A stretch of DNA of 64,000 nt. Source: Bacteroides intestinalis. Its GTDB lineage: Bacteria; Bacteroidota; Bacteroidia; Bacteroidales; Bacteroidaceae. Position numbers and translations under genes: made by a program. Where the stretch lies: contig NZ_QRZF01000004.1 in assembly GCF_003464595.1 (NCBI RefSeq), positions 124,001-188,000 on the forward strand. Reading direction: 5' to 3'. The number at the start of each line of letters is the position of its first letter. Within the stretch, counting starts at the first letter, position 1. Shown here piece by piece: positions 54,641-59,401 of this stretch. The notes below the pieces were generated by a model. The model searched no databases, was not told the origin of the DNA, and saw nothing but the letters and a program-made list of their open reading frames with translations.

Positions 54641-54675
54641 AAAAAGGCGCGGATGAATTTCATCCGCGCCTTTTT
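54641..54675. terminator. Bidirectional terminator, pfkA / SDR
   Basis: Perfect 16-bp arms AAAAAGGCGCGGATGA (54641-54656) and TCATCCGCGCCTTTTT (54660-54675) between convergent genes. Confidence 0.92.
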
Positions 54676-54677
54676 CA

Positions 54678-55523
54678 TTATAGCCATTTTGCTACAATTT
54701 CTTCTGTCTTATCCCATAGTTCCTTCATCTGTACATGGTGAAAGAATTTCTCTGAGAGCTGTTTAGGATGGCAACTTACATTCAATGTTCCGGTACGTTT
54801 TCCCGCATCCTCATCCAGCAACAGACTGATGGCTGTTGCTGCTCCTTGGCGAGGCGTACGTATGAAAGGCCGGAAAAAGATATCCGTCAACGGATCAAAC
54901 CACATATGCATCGTAATGATTTTGGTGGAAACAATACCCGGATCAGCAGCATTGACAACAATTCCTTTTCCTTCCACCTTCTCCGATAGAGCTATTGTAA
55001 ACAAAGTTAATGCCAATTTCGTATTACTATAAATCGGAATACGCCAGAAAGCACCTTTCTTTCCACGCAAAAAGAAGTCAGGAAAATCCAGTCTACCGAT
55101 GGCATAAGTACAAGACACCATATTTACAATCCGGCTTCCCTCTTCCATCAATGGTAACAATTTACGAGTCAATAGATAGGGAGCTACATAATTGACACTC
55201 ACTGTACGTTCCAATCCATCTTCGGTAATATGACGTTTCGTTTCCATAGTACCGGCATTGTTCATTAACAAGGTGATAGCTTCTCCACGCTGAAGAAGTT
55301 CATTGGCAAAAGAAGCCGTAGAAGATAAAGAAGCAAGATTGACCGGTACTATTTCCAATGCTATATTTCCTGTTTCCCGCATTATTAACTGACGTTTCTC
55401 TTCTGCGATTTCTGGATCACGACACGCCATAATGACTTTATATCCGGCGGCAGCAACAGCGCGTGTAATCTCCATTCCCATACCGCCATCTGCTCCAGTT
55501 ATAACTGCAAGTTTCTGTTTCAT
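54678..55523 (-). CDS. Short-chain dehydrogenase, candidate 3-beta-hydroxysteroid dehydrogenase
   Basis: 281-residue classical SDR. Cofactor motif TGADGGMG (residues 9-16) with ACRD after strand 2, suggesting NADP(H). NNAG is at 88-91, Asn at 111, Ser at 137 (VSCTY) and YSNTK (Tyr165, Lys169), so the catalytic tetrad is complete. It resembles the retinol/hydroxysteroid dehydrogenase branch. It is the last gene of a three-gene operon, sharing one base with the flavoenzyme gene (TAATG). With a 5-alpha-reductase and an OYE-type reductase beside it, a 3-beta-hydroxysteroid or bile-acid dehydrogenase is the best inference; regiochemistry is not shown by sequence alone. Confidence 0.82.
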   Translation of the reverse strand: MKQKLAVITGADGGMGMEITRAVAAAGYKVIMACRDPEIAEEKRQLIMRETGNIALEIVPVNLASLSSTASFANELLQRGEAITLLMNNAGTMETKRHITEDGLERTVSVNYVAPYLLTRKLLPLMEEGSRIVNMVSCTYAIGRLDFPDFFLRGKKGAFWRIPIYSNTKLALTLFTIALSEKVEGKGIVVNAADPGIVSTKIITMHMWFDPLTDIFFRPFIRTPRQGAATAISLLLDEDAGKRTGTLNVSCHPKQLSEKFFHHVQMKELWDKTEEIVAKWL

Positions 55524-56743
55524 TATCCTTTTGCTTCTATTTTTGTAATTTCCCGCTTCAAGCCGGCCGGAAGTTCTTCATTCAAATGCTGATGACATGC
55601 CATTTCAATGGAATACATCCGTGCAATACAATAATTACTATGTTTACAATTACAACGTGCTTTCTCTTCTTCACGCATGCGGTTCACAAAACCCGGTTCA
55701 TTAAGCAGGGCACGCGCCATCTGCACAGCTTCAAAACCATCATTCAGTACCTCATCTATTTTTTCACGCGAAACTAAACCACCTACATATACCAATGGCA
55801 TCTTAATTCCTGCTCGGAACTTCATCGCATCTTCCAAGAAATAAGCCTCCTTGAAAGGAACGGTCGGTATCATCCACTTTCCTACCATTCGCACTCCATA
55901 CTTCAGCCACCAGCAATTCATATAATGAGTCATAGTACGGATAGGCATCCGACCACACATCACATACATAGGAGCCTTACTAACAAAGCCCCCACTTAAT
56001 ACTAATGCATGAGCTCCTGATTGCTCCAGGCGTTTTGCCACCTGCATAGTCTCATCCATTTCCATCCCGCCACGGAAACCATCACGCATATTCATTTTTA
56101 CCAATACAGCCATGTCCGTTCCGGCAGCTTTCATCACCTCCTCCATTACCATATCCATAAAACGCATCCGATTTTCCAAAGAGCCACCAAAGCAATCCTT
56201 ACGGCGATTCGTATAAGGAGAAAGGAACTGAGAAATCAAATATCCATGTCCGGCATGTATTTCAACAGCATCAAAGCCAGCCTCACGGGCCAGATTCACA
56301 GCACGGCCGTATGCACGTGCCATCTCCGGCAATTCCTCTTTTTTCAAGCCACGAACAAAAGTAGGTGAGTAAAGATTGAAACCGGTGGAAGCTCCGACAG
56401 GAGTAACACCACAGATACTTTTATGCGACATATTGCCACAATGTCCCAACTGGATAGCTACTGCTGCACCTTCGGCATGTACAGCATCAGTCAGTTCTTT
56501 TAATCCGGGGATAATTTCAGGCCGCATCCACAATTGGCGGTCGAACGACAAACCACTTTGAGTGACAGCTGCATAGGCCACAGTAGTCATTCCAACACCC
56601 CCAGCCGCAACTGAACGGTGATAGTCAAGCAACATTTGCGAAGGGGCATTACCCGGACACATACTTTCAAATGCCGCCGAACGGATAGTACGATTCCGTA
56701 AAGTCAGCGGACCAAAAGTTACAGGAGTAAATAACTTGCTCAT
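55523..56743 (-). CDS. Old-Yellow-Enzyme/BaiCD-like flavin oxidoreductase, candidate 5-beta-reductase
   Basis: 406 residues: an FMN TIM-barrel of the NADH:flavin oxidoreductase family (LFTPVTFGPLTLRNRTIRSA at the start, QLGHCGNMSHKS, then EIHAGHGYLISQFLSP at 161-176 and NRRKDCFGGSLENR). After the barrel four Cys occur as CxC-x5-C-x10-C (364, 366, 372, 383), close to the [4Fe-4S] pattern of 2,4-dienoyl-CoA reductase and BaiCD/BaiH. The C-terminal FAD/NAD domain of those enzymes (~640 aa) is absent. In described gut Bacteroidota clusters an enzyme of this class acts as a 3-oxo-delta4-steroid 5-beta-reductase (5BR). It starts 37 bp after the 5-alpha-reductase gene. Confidence 0.82.
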   Translation of the reverse strand: MSKLFTPVTFGPLTLRNRTIRSAAFESMCPGNAPSQMLLDYHRSVAAGGVGMTTVAYAAVTQSGLSFDRQLWMRPEIIPGLKELTDAVHAEGAAVAIQLGHCGNMSHKSICGVTPVGASTGFNLYSPTFVRGLKKEELPEMARAYGRAVNLAREAGFDAVEIHAGHGYLISQFLSPYTNRRKDCFGGSLENRMRFMDMVMEEVMKAAGTDMAVLVKMNMRDGFRGGMEMDETMQVAKRLEQSGAHALVLSGGFVSKAPMYVMCGRMPIRTMTHYMNCWWLKYGVRMVGKWMIPTVPFKEAYFLEDAMKFRAGIKMPLVYVGGLVSREKIDEVLNDGFEAVQMARALLNEPGFVNRMREEEKARCNCKHSNYCIARMYSIEMACHQHLNEELPAGLKREITKIEAKG

Positions 56744-56780
56744 GAGTATTATTTATGATTTGTGATTTATAAGTGAGAGA

Positions 56781-57542
56781 TTAATAGAGGAACGGAAAAA
56801 CACGTTTCCGGTTTCCCACCGCATCTCCAAACTCTTCTTTATAGCGATGCCAGATGGCATTGGCACGAGGAACCAGGTTAGCCACTGTCCACCACAGGAA
56901 AACCAGTCCGGAGAGCGACCAGGTCAATATAGCCCATCCTGCCCATTCTATAATTTCACCAAAGTAATTGGCAGAGGTGACATAACGATACATCCCCTGC
57001 GATGGAAGGTAATGCCGCGTATCTCCCGGTTTACGAAGATGGCGGATTACATAATCCGAATACCAGTTGATTCCCATTCCGGTAAAGAATAGCAATGCTC
57101 CAATAATAAACTGAGGAGTCATCAGCCACTCCGGTGTATAAAGAGTTTCAGGAGCCAGATAAAAAAGCCATTCTCCTTGCATAAAGCCATTCAGGAGGTT
57201 GAACAGCATTCCCATCATCATAATGGCAAGCGGCATACGGCTCTTTCCCTTCAGCAGGAAAGGAAACACAAAGGCGCGCTGGAAATAATGCAATTGGAAT
57301 AAGAGAAAGAAAATCAGGGGAGCAATTGAATTATATAGTGCTGAATTCCACCAAAGTAACAACATTACAATAAACACAGGTGCTTCCATCAGCATCCACG
57401 CCAATTTATTATTAATGGAAATGCCCCAAGATGCAGTGCGGAACATTCCATATCCCGCTTTGACAAAATAAAGTGCGATAAAAACAAACAGTGCGATGAT
57501 GCTCATTGCACCGAGAAATAGCTGAAAAGTCCCTTGTTCCAT
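56781..57542 (-). CDS. Steroid 5-alpha-reductase family membrane enzyme
   Basis: 253 residues with about seven membrane helices, the size of human SRD5A1/2. The match to SRD5A is strong: LMEAPVFIVM (Glu53, matching the SRD5A2 catalytic Glu57), LHYFQRAFVF (Tyr86, matching Tyr91), GINWYSDYVIRHLRKPGDT (157-175; NADPH site) and YVTSANYFGEIIEWAGWA (187-204), ending in RVFPFLY. It should reduce a delta4-3-oxosteroid to the 5-alpha (allo) product with NADPH. It is the first gene of an operon with an OYE-type reductase and an SDR, the known 5AR/5BR/3-beta-HSDH set of gut Bacteroidota. A -7 box lies 24 bp upstream. Confidence 0.9.
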   Translation of the reverse strand: MEQGTFQLFLGAMSIIALFVFIALYFVKAGYGMFRTASWGISINNKLAWMLMEAPVFIVMLLLWWNSALYNSIAPLIFFLLFQLHYFQRAFVFPFLLKGKSRMPLAIMMMGMLFNLLNGFMQGEWLFYLAPETLYTPEWLMTPQFIIGALLFFTGMGINWYSDYVIRHLRKPGDTRHYLPSQGMYRYVTSANYFGEIIEWAGWAILTWSLSGLVFLWWTVANLVPRANAIWHRYKEEFGDAVGNRKRVFPFLY

Positions 57543-57565
57543 ACTTGTTTCGATTTAAGTACGGG

Positions 57566-57573
57566 CAAAGATA
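57566..57573 (-). promoter_or_regulatory. Promoter of the steroid/bile-acid operon
   Basis: Perfect minus-strand -7 box TATCTTTG, 24 bp before the 5-alpha-reductase start, giving a very short leader. No clear -33 TTTG is seen. Confidence 0.6.
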
Positions 57574-57741: not shown

Positions 57742-57829
57742 ATACTTAGGGTATCTCAGTATCATACTTAGGGTACCTCAGTATCATACTTAGGGTACCT
57801 CAGTCGTATACTGAGATAGGGTTATTATA
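57742..57829. repeat. Four-unit array, exact 22-bp period, last unit diverged
   Basis: ATACTTAGGGTA(T/C)CTCAG starts at 57742, 57764 and 57786. The fourth unit at 57808 keeps ATACT and then GAGATAGGGT, still in 22-bp register. At the junction CTCAGT (57799-57804) and ACTGAG (57810-57815) form a small palindrome. Confidence 0.85.
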
Positions 57830-57931: not shown

Positions 57932-58022
57932 AGTTGACGAGTTAACAAGTTGACAAGGGGACAAGGTTCCATGCGGCACAGAAGCATTGCGCAGCCCCTT
58001 GTTCCCTTGTCAACTCGTCAAC
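57932..58022. repeat. Octamer-word hairpin with CCATGCGG/GCGCAGCCC core
   Basis: The left arm is octamers AGTTGACG, AGTTAACA, AGTTGACA, AGGGGACA (57932-57963). The core is CCATGCGG ... GCGCAGCCC (57969-57998). The right arm is the inverse of AGTTGACG, AGTTGACA, AGGGAACA (to 58022). It lies 36 bp past the gltA stop, so it may form a stable 3' structure for the TCA operon. The core is shared with 62969-63058. Confidence 0.78.
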
Positions 58023-58057: not shown

Positions 58058-59401
58058 TTATCGCTTCTTAATAGGTACATAAACCGTATCTTCGAGTACA
58101 TTTTTGTATGCCGGACGAATGATACGCTTACCTTCAAAGTTCAATTCTTCATTACGGTGTGCACACCAGCCAACGATACGAGCCATGGCAAACAACGGCG
58201 TAAAGATTTCCTGTGGTAACCCAATCATTTCATAAACAAAGCCTGAATAGAAATCAACGTTGCTCGATACCGTCTTTCCATTGTTCTTCACGCGACCGAA
58301 GGTTTCGATAGCACGTTCCTCCAAGAGCTCAAGGAAAGCAAATTCGCGCTCTTTACCTTTTTCCCGGGCAAGATCACGAGCCAGTTCTTTCAGTAAGATA
58401 GCACGTGGATCGGAAATCGTATAAACAGCATGTCCGATACCATAAATCAATCCGGTCTTGTTATAAACTTCCTTATTCAGCATACGGGTAAAGTAAGTGT
58501 CGATCTCATCCACACTTGTCCAGTCCTGAATATTCTCCTGTAAATGATGGAACATATCAGCCACCTGAATATTTGCACCGCCATGAAGCGGGCCTTTCAA
58601 CGAACCGATACCTGCGGCAATGGATGAGTATGTATCCGTTCCGGTAGAAGAAGTAACACGAACCGTGAAAGTGGAGTTATTACCACCACCATGCTCAGCC
58701 TGAAGCACCAACAAAAGGTCGAGCGTACGAGCATCCAGTTGTGTATAATTACGTTTCAGTATATAGAGGAAATTCTCGGCAATAGAAAGATTTTCCTGCG
58801 GATGGCGAATATGCAATGAACGACCGAAAGTGGCATGGCGCAACATATTATATGCATAAGCAATAATGGTCGGGAACTTGGAAATCAATTCTATGCTCTG
58901 GCGCATCAGGTTGTCGCGGGAAGTATCATCGGCAGCAGGGTCAAAACGATACATCTCAAGTACACTACGTGCCAGGATATTCATAATATTATTTCCTTCC
59001 AGTTCGATAATATTCATCTTGGTTTTCTGCTCCAACGGCATATTATCATTAATCAGTTCACGGAAAGAAGCCAACTCCTCCTTATCGGGCAAATTACCGG
59101 ACAGTAACAGATAAGCCACTTCTTCAAATCCGAAACGCTTCTCTTTAACAAAAGCATGAACAATATCCTCTACATCATAACCACGGTAGAACAACTTGCC
59201 CGGGATAGGTTTCAAGCCACCGCCCGGAACACGTTCATAACCCACTACATTACCAATTCTGGTGAGCCCGACCAACACACCCGTACCGTCTTCATTGCGC
59301 AAACCGCGCTTCACATCAAATTTGGAGAATAATTCGGTATCAATCCGAACCGCTTCCTTCATATCCTCGGAAAGCTTATAAACTAAATATTCCTTCTTCA
59401 T
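58058..59401 (-). CDS. gltA: Citrate synthase
   Basis: Condenses oxaloacetate and acetyl-CoA. 447 residues with LFYRGYDVEDIVHAFVKEKR, the His-bearing QAEHGGGNNSTFTVRVTSST, GPLHGGANIQV (second active-site His) and GIGHAVYTISDPRAILLKEL (third). RIVGWCAHRNEELNFEGKRI closes the sequence. It resembles the Bacteroidota citrate synthase with an extended N-terminus. It is the last gene of the acn-icd-gltA operon, 25 bp after icd. Confidence 0.94.
   Translation of the reverse strand: MKKEYLVYKLSEDMKEAVRIDTELFSKFDVKRGLRNEDGTGVLVGLTRIGNVVGYERVPGGGLKPIPGKLFYRGYDVEDIVHAFVKEKRFGFEEVAYLLLSGNLPDKEELASFRELINDNMPLEQKTKMNIIELEGNNIMNILARSVLEMYRFDPAADDTSRDNLMRQSIELISKFPTIIAYAYNMLRHATFGRSLHIRHPQENLSIAENFLYILKRNYTQLDARTLDLLLVLQAEHGGGNNSTFTVRVTSSTGTDTYSSIAAGIGSLKGPLHGGANIQVADMFHHLQENIQDWTSVDEIDTYFTRMLNKEVYNKTGLIYGIGHAVYTISDPRAILLKELARDLAREKGKEREFAFLELLEERAIETFGRVKNNGKTVSSNVDFYSGFVYEMIGLPQEIFTPLFAMARIVGWCAHRNEELNFEGKRIIRPAYKNVLEDTVYVPIKKR

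Follow-up and report, generated by a model that had tools for sequence, protein, structure and literature searches.

A three-gene operon on the minus strand of a 64,000-nucleotide stretch of Bacteroides intestinalis DNA (contig NZ_QRZF01000004.1, positions 124,001 to 188,000; hereafter the window, in whose own coordinates positions are given) is quite probably a cassette of 5α-reductase (5AR), 5β-reductase (5BR) and 3β-hydroxysteroid dehydrogenase (3β-HSDH), by which Bacteroides of the B. intestinalis/B. cellulosilyticus/B. timonensis group would isomerise bile acids or other steroids. The protein families, the conserved active-site residues, the layout of the operon and its conserved linkage form the basis of this reading in the present analysis. 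The order of the reactions and the role of 5AR are taken from reviews of related clusters, and the expression, activity and substrates of the present copy are predicted from these relatives.

The operon consists of three open reading frames, each running without interruption from ATG to stop: gene 1 (56781..57542, 253 residues), gene 2 (55523..56743, 406 residues) and gene 3 (54678..55523, 281 residues). A gap of 37 bp (56744-56780) separates gene 1 from gene 2, genes 2 and 3 overlap by one base (TAATG), and one TATCTTTG box lies upstream of the set. A first-pass annotation of this DNA had described the same tight packing under a single box, and the reading frames and coordinates bear it out.

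Clusters of this kind are known in Bacteroidota. According to the literature, a 5AR/5BR/3β-HSDH cluster forming isoallolithocholic acid (isoalloLCA) occurs in Parabacteroides merdae, Odoribacter laneus and Bacteroides dorei (Sato 2021, which PMC10382948 cites; Li 2021; reviewed in PMC10672800, PMC11271093 and PMC12697870), and in PMC12789469 strains of Bacteroides and Parabacteroides are listed for each of the two reductases. The operon in the window resembles that cluster, as described, in gene content, clustering, phylum and gut niche. Because the reviews describe the content of the cluster, the cassette is of a kind already known; both what it makes and its presence in Bacteroides have likewise been published.

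A steroid 5α-reductase encoded by gene 1

Gene 1 is a membrane protein of the steroid 5α-reductase family (SRD5A1/2 type), as judged from its Steroid_dh domain, its predicted fold and its catalytic residues. It matches the Pfam family PF02544 (Steroid_dh) with an E-value of 7.2e-41 and 140.1 bits against a curated cut-off of 22.6. A sequence search of the PDB returned three matches only, namely PbSRD5A (7C83) with 196 bits, human SRD5A2 (7BW1) with 143 bits and the enoyl-CoA reductase art-1 with 34 bits. The model of gene 1 has a mean predicted local distance difference test (pLDDT) score of 92 and superimposes on 7C83 and 7BW1 with template modelling (TM) scores of 0.94 and 0.86, respectively, the next listed chains reaching 0.53. 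Ten residues (Glu53, His85, Tyr86, Asn159, Asp163, Tyr193, Gly195, Glu196, Glu199 and Arg226) are invariant in all 81 sequences of an alignment of the window with 80 fetched loci, a set that extends to actinobacterial, myxobacterial, SAR86 and Heimdallarchaeota records. Glu53 and Tyr86 stand opposite Glu57 and Tyr91 of SRD5A2, as counted by eye on the alignment with an assumed chain offset of 4, and the segment LRKPGDT begins at residue 169.

The first-pass annotation had named Glu53, Tyr86 and LRKPGDT, which are present as claimed. It had also proposed a comparison with the SRD5A2 structure, to which the model corresponds well, and had regarded closer similarity to enoyl reductases or loss of Glu53 and Tyr86 as findings that would speak against its view; neither was found. 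Its description of gene 1 as a close relative of vertebrate SRD5A is to be read with the identity in the structural alignment in mind, which is 32% to SRD5A2 and 40% to the bacterial PbSRD5A. Gene 1 shares the fold and the catalytic Glu and Tyr with both of these proteins, but unlike them it sits in an operon with an Old Yellow Enzyme (OYE) and a short-chain dehydrogenase/reductase (SDR). The closest named relatives come from Bacteroides timonensis (97%) and B. cellulosilyticus (96%).

A fatty-acyl enoyl reductase was considered as an identity for gene 1 and was rejected on the bit scores and TM scores given above. Homologues of 42% identity with the catalytic residues kept are found in two records titled Heimdallarchaeota (L042:4164-4988 and L043:1043-1867), and further ones in SAR86, Polyangium and actinobacterial records.

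An Old Yellow Enzyme without its FAD/NAD half

Gene 2 encodes an OYE-type flavoenzyme (Pfam PF00724, E = 2.7e-56) and, from its sequence, is probably a 3-oxo-steroid 5β-reductase/dehydrogenase, that is, the 5BR of the cassette. Gln98, His163, His166, Tyr168 and Lys216 are present in all 60 proteins compared, a set from which the partial L134 and matches below 350 bits were left out. The model has a pLDDT of 85, and the top rows of its VIA-align comparison are 2-naphthoyl-CoA reductase and trimethylamine dehydrogenase, with 2,4-dienoyl-CoA reductase (1PS9) at rank 5. The OYE barrel of gene 2 is common to 1PS9, to 2-naphthoyl-CoA reductase (6QKG), to trimethylamine dehydrogenase (2TMD) and to a model of BaiCD. 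Enzymes of this kind extend into a flavin adenine dinucleotide (FAD)/NAD half and carry flavin mononucleotide (FMN) and a [4Fe-4S] cluster. In contrast, gene 2 stops at residue 406 and its C-terminal FAD/NAD(P) half is absent. Of the 120 listed homologues, 119 have 405-446 residues. The remaining one (P0227) is a predicted protein of 636 residues that combines 5AR and OYE domains on a lone 3.8-kb contig and is either a natural fusion or a sequencing error.

The first-pass annotation had described gene 2 as a BaiCD-like FMN enzyme without the FAD/NAD domain. The OYE family and the missing half stand, but gene 2 is ruled out as BaiCD proper: it scores 183.2 bits against the cut-off of 825 bits of the NCBIfam BaiCD equivalog NF041087 (642 positions), and the match falls into two stretches, the best of which covers residues 2-260.

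That annotation did not mention a conserved cysteine motif near the C terminus (residues 364-384; 55592..55654, minus strand), which comprises Cys364, Cys366, Cys372 and Cys383-His384 and is a candidate [4Fe-4S] site. Cys366, Cys372 and Cys383 are found in 60 of 60 proteins, and a fourth cysteine at position 364, 386 or 382 in 56 of them. Among the 50 VIA-align rows listed, the alignment reaches residue 405-406 of gene 2 only for multidomain flavoenzyme chains, although such fold-list comparisons reach only the families present in the lists. Gene 2 thus agrees with the FMN/[4Fe-4S] class of OYEs in the barrel and in a C-terminal segment that aligns to its end, not in the FAD/NAD(P) half. Two observations speak against an iron-sulfur site. 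Four of the 60 proteins (L120, L122, L126 and L138) lack the fourth cysteine at the scored positions, two of these (L120 and L138) having a cysteine one residue away, and both Cys364 and Cys386 are absent from four of the 120 closest homologues. As to a match in sequence between this segment and that of 1PS9, no PDB hit to the last 107 residues had an E-value below 0.17, a profile search with gene 2 limited to an E-value of 1e-40 found plain OYEs only, and some single-domain OYEs (PETN and NEM reductases) also align up to residue 386-388. Because of these searches and this alignment, the iron-sulfur reading rests on conservation and on the alignment end points, in a part of the model where confidence is low (local pLDDT 53-60 for residues 371-390). 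On balance, it is somewhat more likely than not that the cysteines hold an iron-sulfur cluster, and the middle enzyme of the cassette resembles an iron-sulfur flavoenzyme whose usual electron-supply half has been lost. A search of the open-licence literature, outside which the primary cluster papers lie, found no description of the cysteine motif, the cofactors or the missing half of the Bacteroidota 5BR, and the motif and the missing half are not claimed to be unpublished.

The short-chain dehydrogenase encoded by gene 3

Gene 3 encodes a classical SDR (Pfam PF00106, E = 3e-27) by the presence of TGxxxGxG, Asn, Ser and Tyr-x3-Lys in its sequence, and it is the probable 3β-HSDH of the operon. 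Thr9, Gly10, Gly14, Gly16, Asn111, Ser137, Tyr165 and Lys169 are invariant in 15 of 15 sequences. The four active-site residues among them substantiate the earlier statement that the active site is complete. The protein is found at 99% identity in a metagenome-assembled genome (MAG) of B. intestinalis.

Linkage and distribution of the three genes

Eleven of the 80 loci fetched with gene 1, all eleven titled Bacteroidota, carry the complete set of three genes in the order seen here. Ten loci carry 5AR and OYE, at a spacing of 1.6 and 2.4 kb in two cases, and three (L006, L010 and L022) carry 5AR with a gene 3-type SDR only. In the other 56, neither an OYE nor a gene 3-type SDR reaches 100 bits on the strand of 5AR, some of their contigs being too short to judge; 52 of them are at 51% identity or less, and 42 are not titled Bacteroidota. 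Two loci titled Parabacteroides sp. (L009 and L017) contain the same genes in the same order. Of the 18 genomes placed in one genus with L009, only that of L009 itself has 5AR, and the distribution outside Bacteroides is patchy.

In a sample of 99 genomes of the genus, 5AR is present in 59, a close OYE orthologue, by a cut set by eye, in 56, and both in 55. The two genes lie within 300 bp of each other in 53 of these 55, including one genome (G063) in which 5AR and OYE are each broken into two pieces. In the remaining two, a gene on the opposite strand stands between them (G038) or the pair is split between two contigs. Pairwise distances of the three proteins over 12 sets are correlated (r = 0.89, 0.81 and 0.93; Mantel p at most 0.0005), as is expected for genes inherited together. 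In an order-wide sample, the 5AR profile matched 61 of 198 genomes, many of them merely with E-values of 1e-4 to 1e-10, and an OYE adjoins 5AR in 19 of 29 loci.

The third position of the cassette varies. In seven of the 80 loci (L011, L012, L013, L018, L019, L024 and L026), an SDR from a different cluster comes after the OYE or, in L018, directly after 5AR. Compared by BLAST with gene 3-type SDRs, it shows 23-32% identity in its eight best matches. In the order-wide loci that are long enough, the third gene is of the gene 3 type in four and of the second type in eight, and this second type can fill the third slot outside Bacteroides. No account of a second SDR type at this place was found in the open-licence literature, and it is not claimed to be unpublished.

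Some copies are irregular. One genome (G089, C7) has, in addition to an intact set on another contig, a second OYE copy that is split into two pieces and contains stops. Two genomes (G122 and G240) have two strong, separate 5AR copies each, of which the fetched ones (L140 and L137) have no OYE within 1.5 kb. L118 (G060) is a 5AR-SDR pair without OYE whose chromosomal surroundings differ, with a neighbouring gene like those for TonB-dependent receptors, which suggests movement of the cassette.

Proposed reaction sequence and alternative explanations

According to PMC10672800, the pathway runs from 3-oxolithocholic acid (3-oxoLCA) through 3-oxo-Δ4-LCA (5BR) and 3-oxo-alloLCA (5AR) to isoalloLCA (3β-HSDH), an order that fits the enzyme families of the present operon. 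Gene 2 would remove a hydride with its FMN from C5 of a 3-oxo-5β-steroid, such as 3-oxoLCA, to give the 3-oxo-Δ4 intermediate, or would add it back. The membrane enzyme encoded by gene 1 would then deliver a hydride from NADPH to the opposite face of C5 to form a flat 5α (allo) 3-oxo steroid, and gene 3 would reduce the 3-oxo group to a 3β-hydroxyl group, yielding the isoallo product. Hormones with a Δ4-3-oxo group could enter at the second step. The first-pass annotation had correctly matched the content of the operon to the described clusters, but the entry substrate that it gave, a 3-oxo-Δ4 bile acid, is incomplete: because 5BR acts first and oxidatively in the reviewed pathway (PMC10672800), a 5β-3-oxo bile acid can also be the entry substrate. 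The FMN of gene 2 may pass hydride to and from NAD(P)H without an intermediary, as it does in simple OYEs. Alternatively, if there is an iron-sulfur cluster at the cysteines, electrons from C5 may pass through it to a carrier such as ferredoxin, with 5AR drawing on NADPH. Gene 2 as such a half-size FMN/[4Fe-4S] steroid dehydrogenase is a tentative proposal that is possible rather than probable. The same conversion of 3-oxo-Δ4 bile acids to allo forms is ascribed to BaiP and BaiJ of Clostridium scindens in PMC10382948, where they are described as a urocanate-reductase-like or flavin-dependent protein, in contrast to the membrane SRD5A family found here.

Several points weigh against a complete bile acid-isomerising cassette. 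Four of the 59 genomes with 5AR in the genus sample lack a close OYE; a gene 3-type SDR adjoins 5AR in the three whose loci were fetched (L101, L104 and L105; the fourth genome is G036). Because a close 5BR is missing from some genomes with 5AR, isomerisation of 5β bile acids need not be a function of every such set. Gene 2 is not BaiCD proper, the role of the OYE as 5β-reductase is termed hypothesised in PMC10382948, and the 3β stereochemistry of gene 3 is predicted from its place in the described cluster. In favour of the cassette, that paper describes 5AR clusters with a predicted 3β-HSDH and a BaiCD/BaiH-like NADH:flavin oxidoreductase, and it reports that disruption of 5AR in P. merdae prevents the formation of alloLCA derivatives.

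The main substrates might instead be Δ4-3-oxo hormones or sterols of host or diet, such as progesterone, testosterone, cortisol and cholestenone, which the cassette would inactivate or convert. Gene 1 belongs to the family of SRD5A2, whose substrates are hormones. Moreover, 5AR-SDR cassettes without an adjoining OYE (L006, L010, L022, L101, L104 and L105) need no 5β entry step, and no close OYE was found anywhere in five of these six genomes, neither in whole-genome searches of L006 and L010 (MAGs of completeness not given) nor in the genus-sample search of L101, L104 and L105, L022 lying outside these searches. An OYE-type 5β-reductase of C. innocuum (ci2350) reduces progesterone, cortisone and hydrocortisone, according to PMC12238238. 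However, the reviews assign bile acid conversion to Bacteroidota, including the loss of alloLCA derivatives in the P. merdae mutant, and the use of hormones and of bile acids is compatible with each other. Hormones or sterols as the main substrates are rather unlikely.

It is less likely still that gene 2 is a general enone reductase for the detoxification of xenobiotics or quinones that merely travels with 5AR and SDR. OYEs are promiscuous, the best PDB sequence matches of gene 2 are YqjM-type ene-reductases (22-32% identity in the structural lists), and its BaiCD score of 183 bits falls under the cut-off of 825; against this stand the proximity of OYE to 5AR in 53 of 55 genomes, the correlated divergence and the full conservation of the active-site residues. 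A TECR-like lipid enoyl reductase or an SRD5A3-like polyprenol reductase is highly improbable for gene 1. The wider superfamily includes such enzymes, and gene 1 matches art-1 weakly (34 bits). However, it matches PbSRD5A and SRD5A2 with 196 and 143 bits and with TM scores of 0.94 and 0.86 in a comparison to which SRD5A3 did not belong, the next fold reaching 0.53, and its linkage with OYE and SDR also argues for a steroid 5α-reductase.

Transcription signals and chromosomal neighbourhood

The TATCTTTG box (57566..57573, minus strand) lies at -31 to -24 relative to the ATG of gene 1 and follows the consensus TAnnTTTG, presumably the Bacteroides-type -7 box. In eight of eight Bacteroides upstream regions (window and L002-L008), such a box starts at -28 to -32. 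With the nearest ATG taken as the start, it occurs within 110 nucleotides in 17 of 31 upstream regions (window and L002-L031; L001 has too little upstream DNA), whereas 500 mononucleotide shuffles gave 2.6 such regions on average and never more than 7, several of the sequences being closely related and hence non-independent. At the other end of the operon, between gene 3 and the convergent pfkA, a hairpin read in the sequence (54641..54675) has arms at 54646-54657 and 54659-54670 that pair perfectly over 12 bp, flanked by five A on one side and five T on the other, and is probably a two-way terminator serving both the operon and pfkA.

The position of the promoter and the order of the genes recur across Bacteroides loci. 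pfkA lies immediately downstream in eight of nine loci (window and L001-L008), the sequence of L003 stopping short of it. A block of citrate synthase and isocitrate dehydrogenase genes lies upstream in six of the nine; L001 begins at the operon, and L006 and L008 carry different genes there. These flanking genes were named from the sequences, not by family search. In the genus sample, gltA or pfkA again adjoins many copies of the cassette. In the window, the interval between gltA and gene 1 contains a 22-bp unit, ATACTTAGGGTAYCTCAGTATC, in three direct copies starting at 57742, 57764 and 57786 (57742-57807), which may be a regulatory or repeat element. An inverted repeat with near-complementary arms, GTTGACGAGTTAACAAG (57933-57949) and CTTGTCAACTCGTCAAC (58006-58022), spans 57933-58022 just downstream of the gltA frame, whose end is at 58058.

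Implications

If the ferredoxin route holds, the flip of the A/B-ring junction would couple two separate electron pools rather than run as a closed NAD(P) cycle. Since cassettes of three kinds exist (5AR-5BR-SDR, 5AR-5BR-second-SDR and 5AR-SDR), product spectra are predicted to differ between species. In reviews, isoalloLCA is reported to promote regulatory T cells and to inhibit C. difficile. Because of these effects, knowing which Bacteroides carry an intact cassette would help to predict which of them make isoalloLCA.

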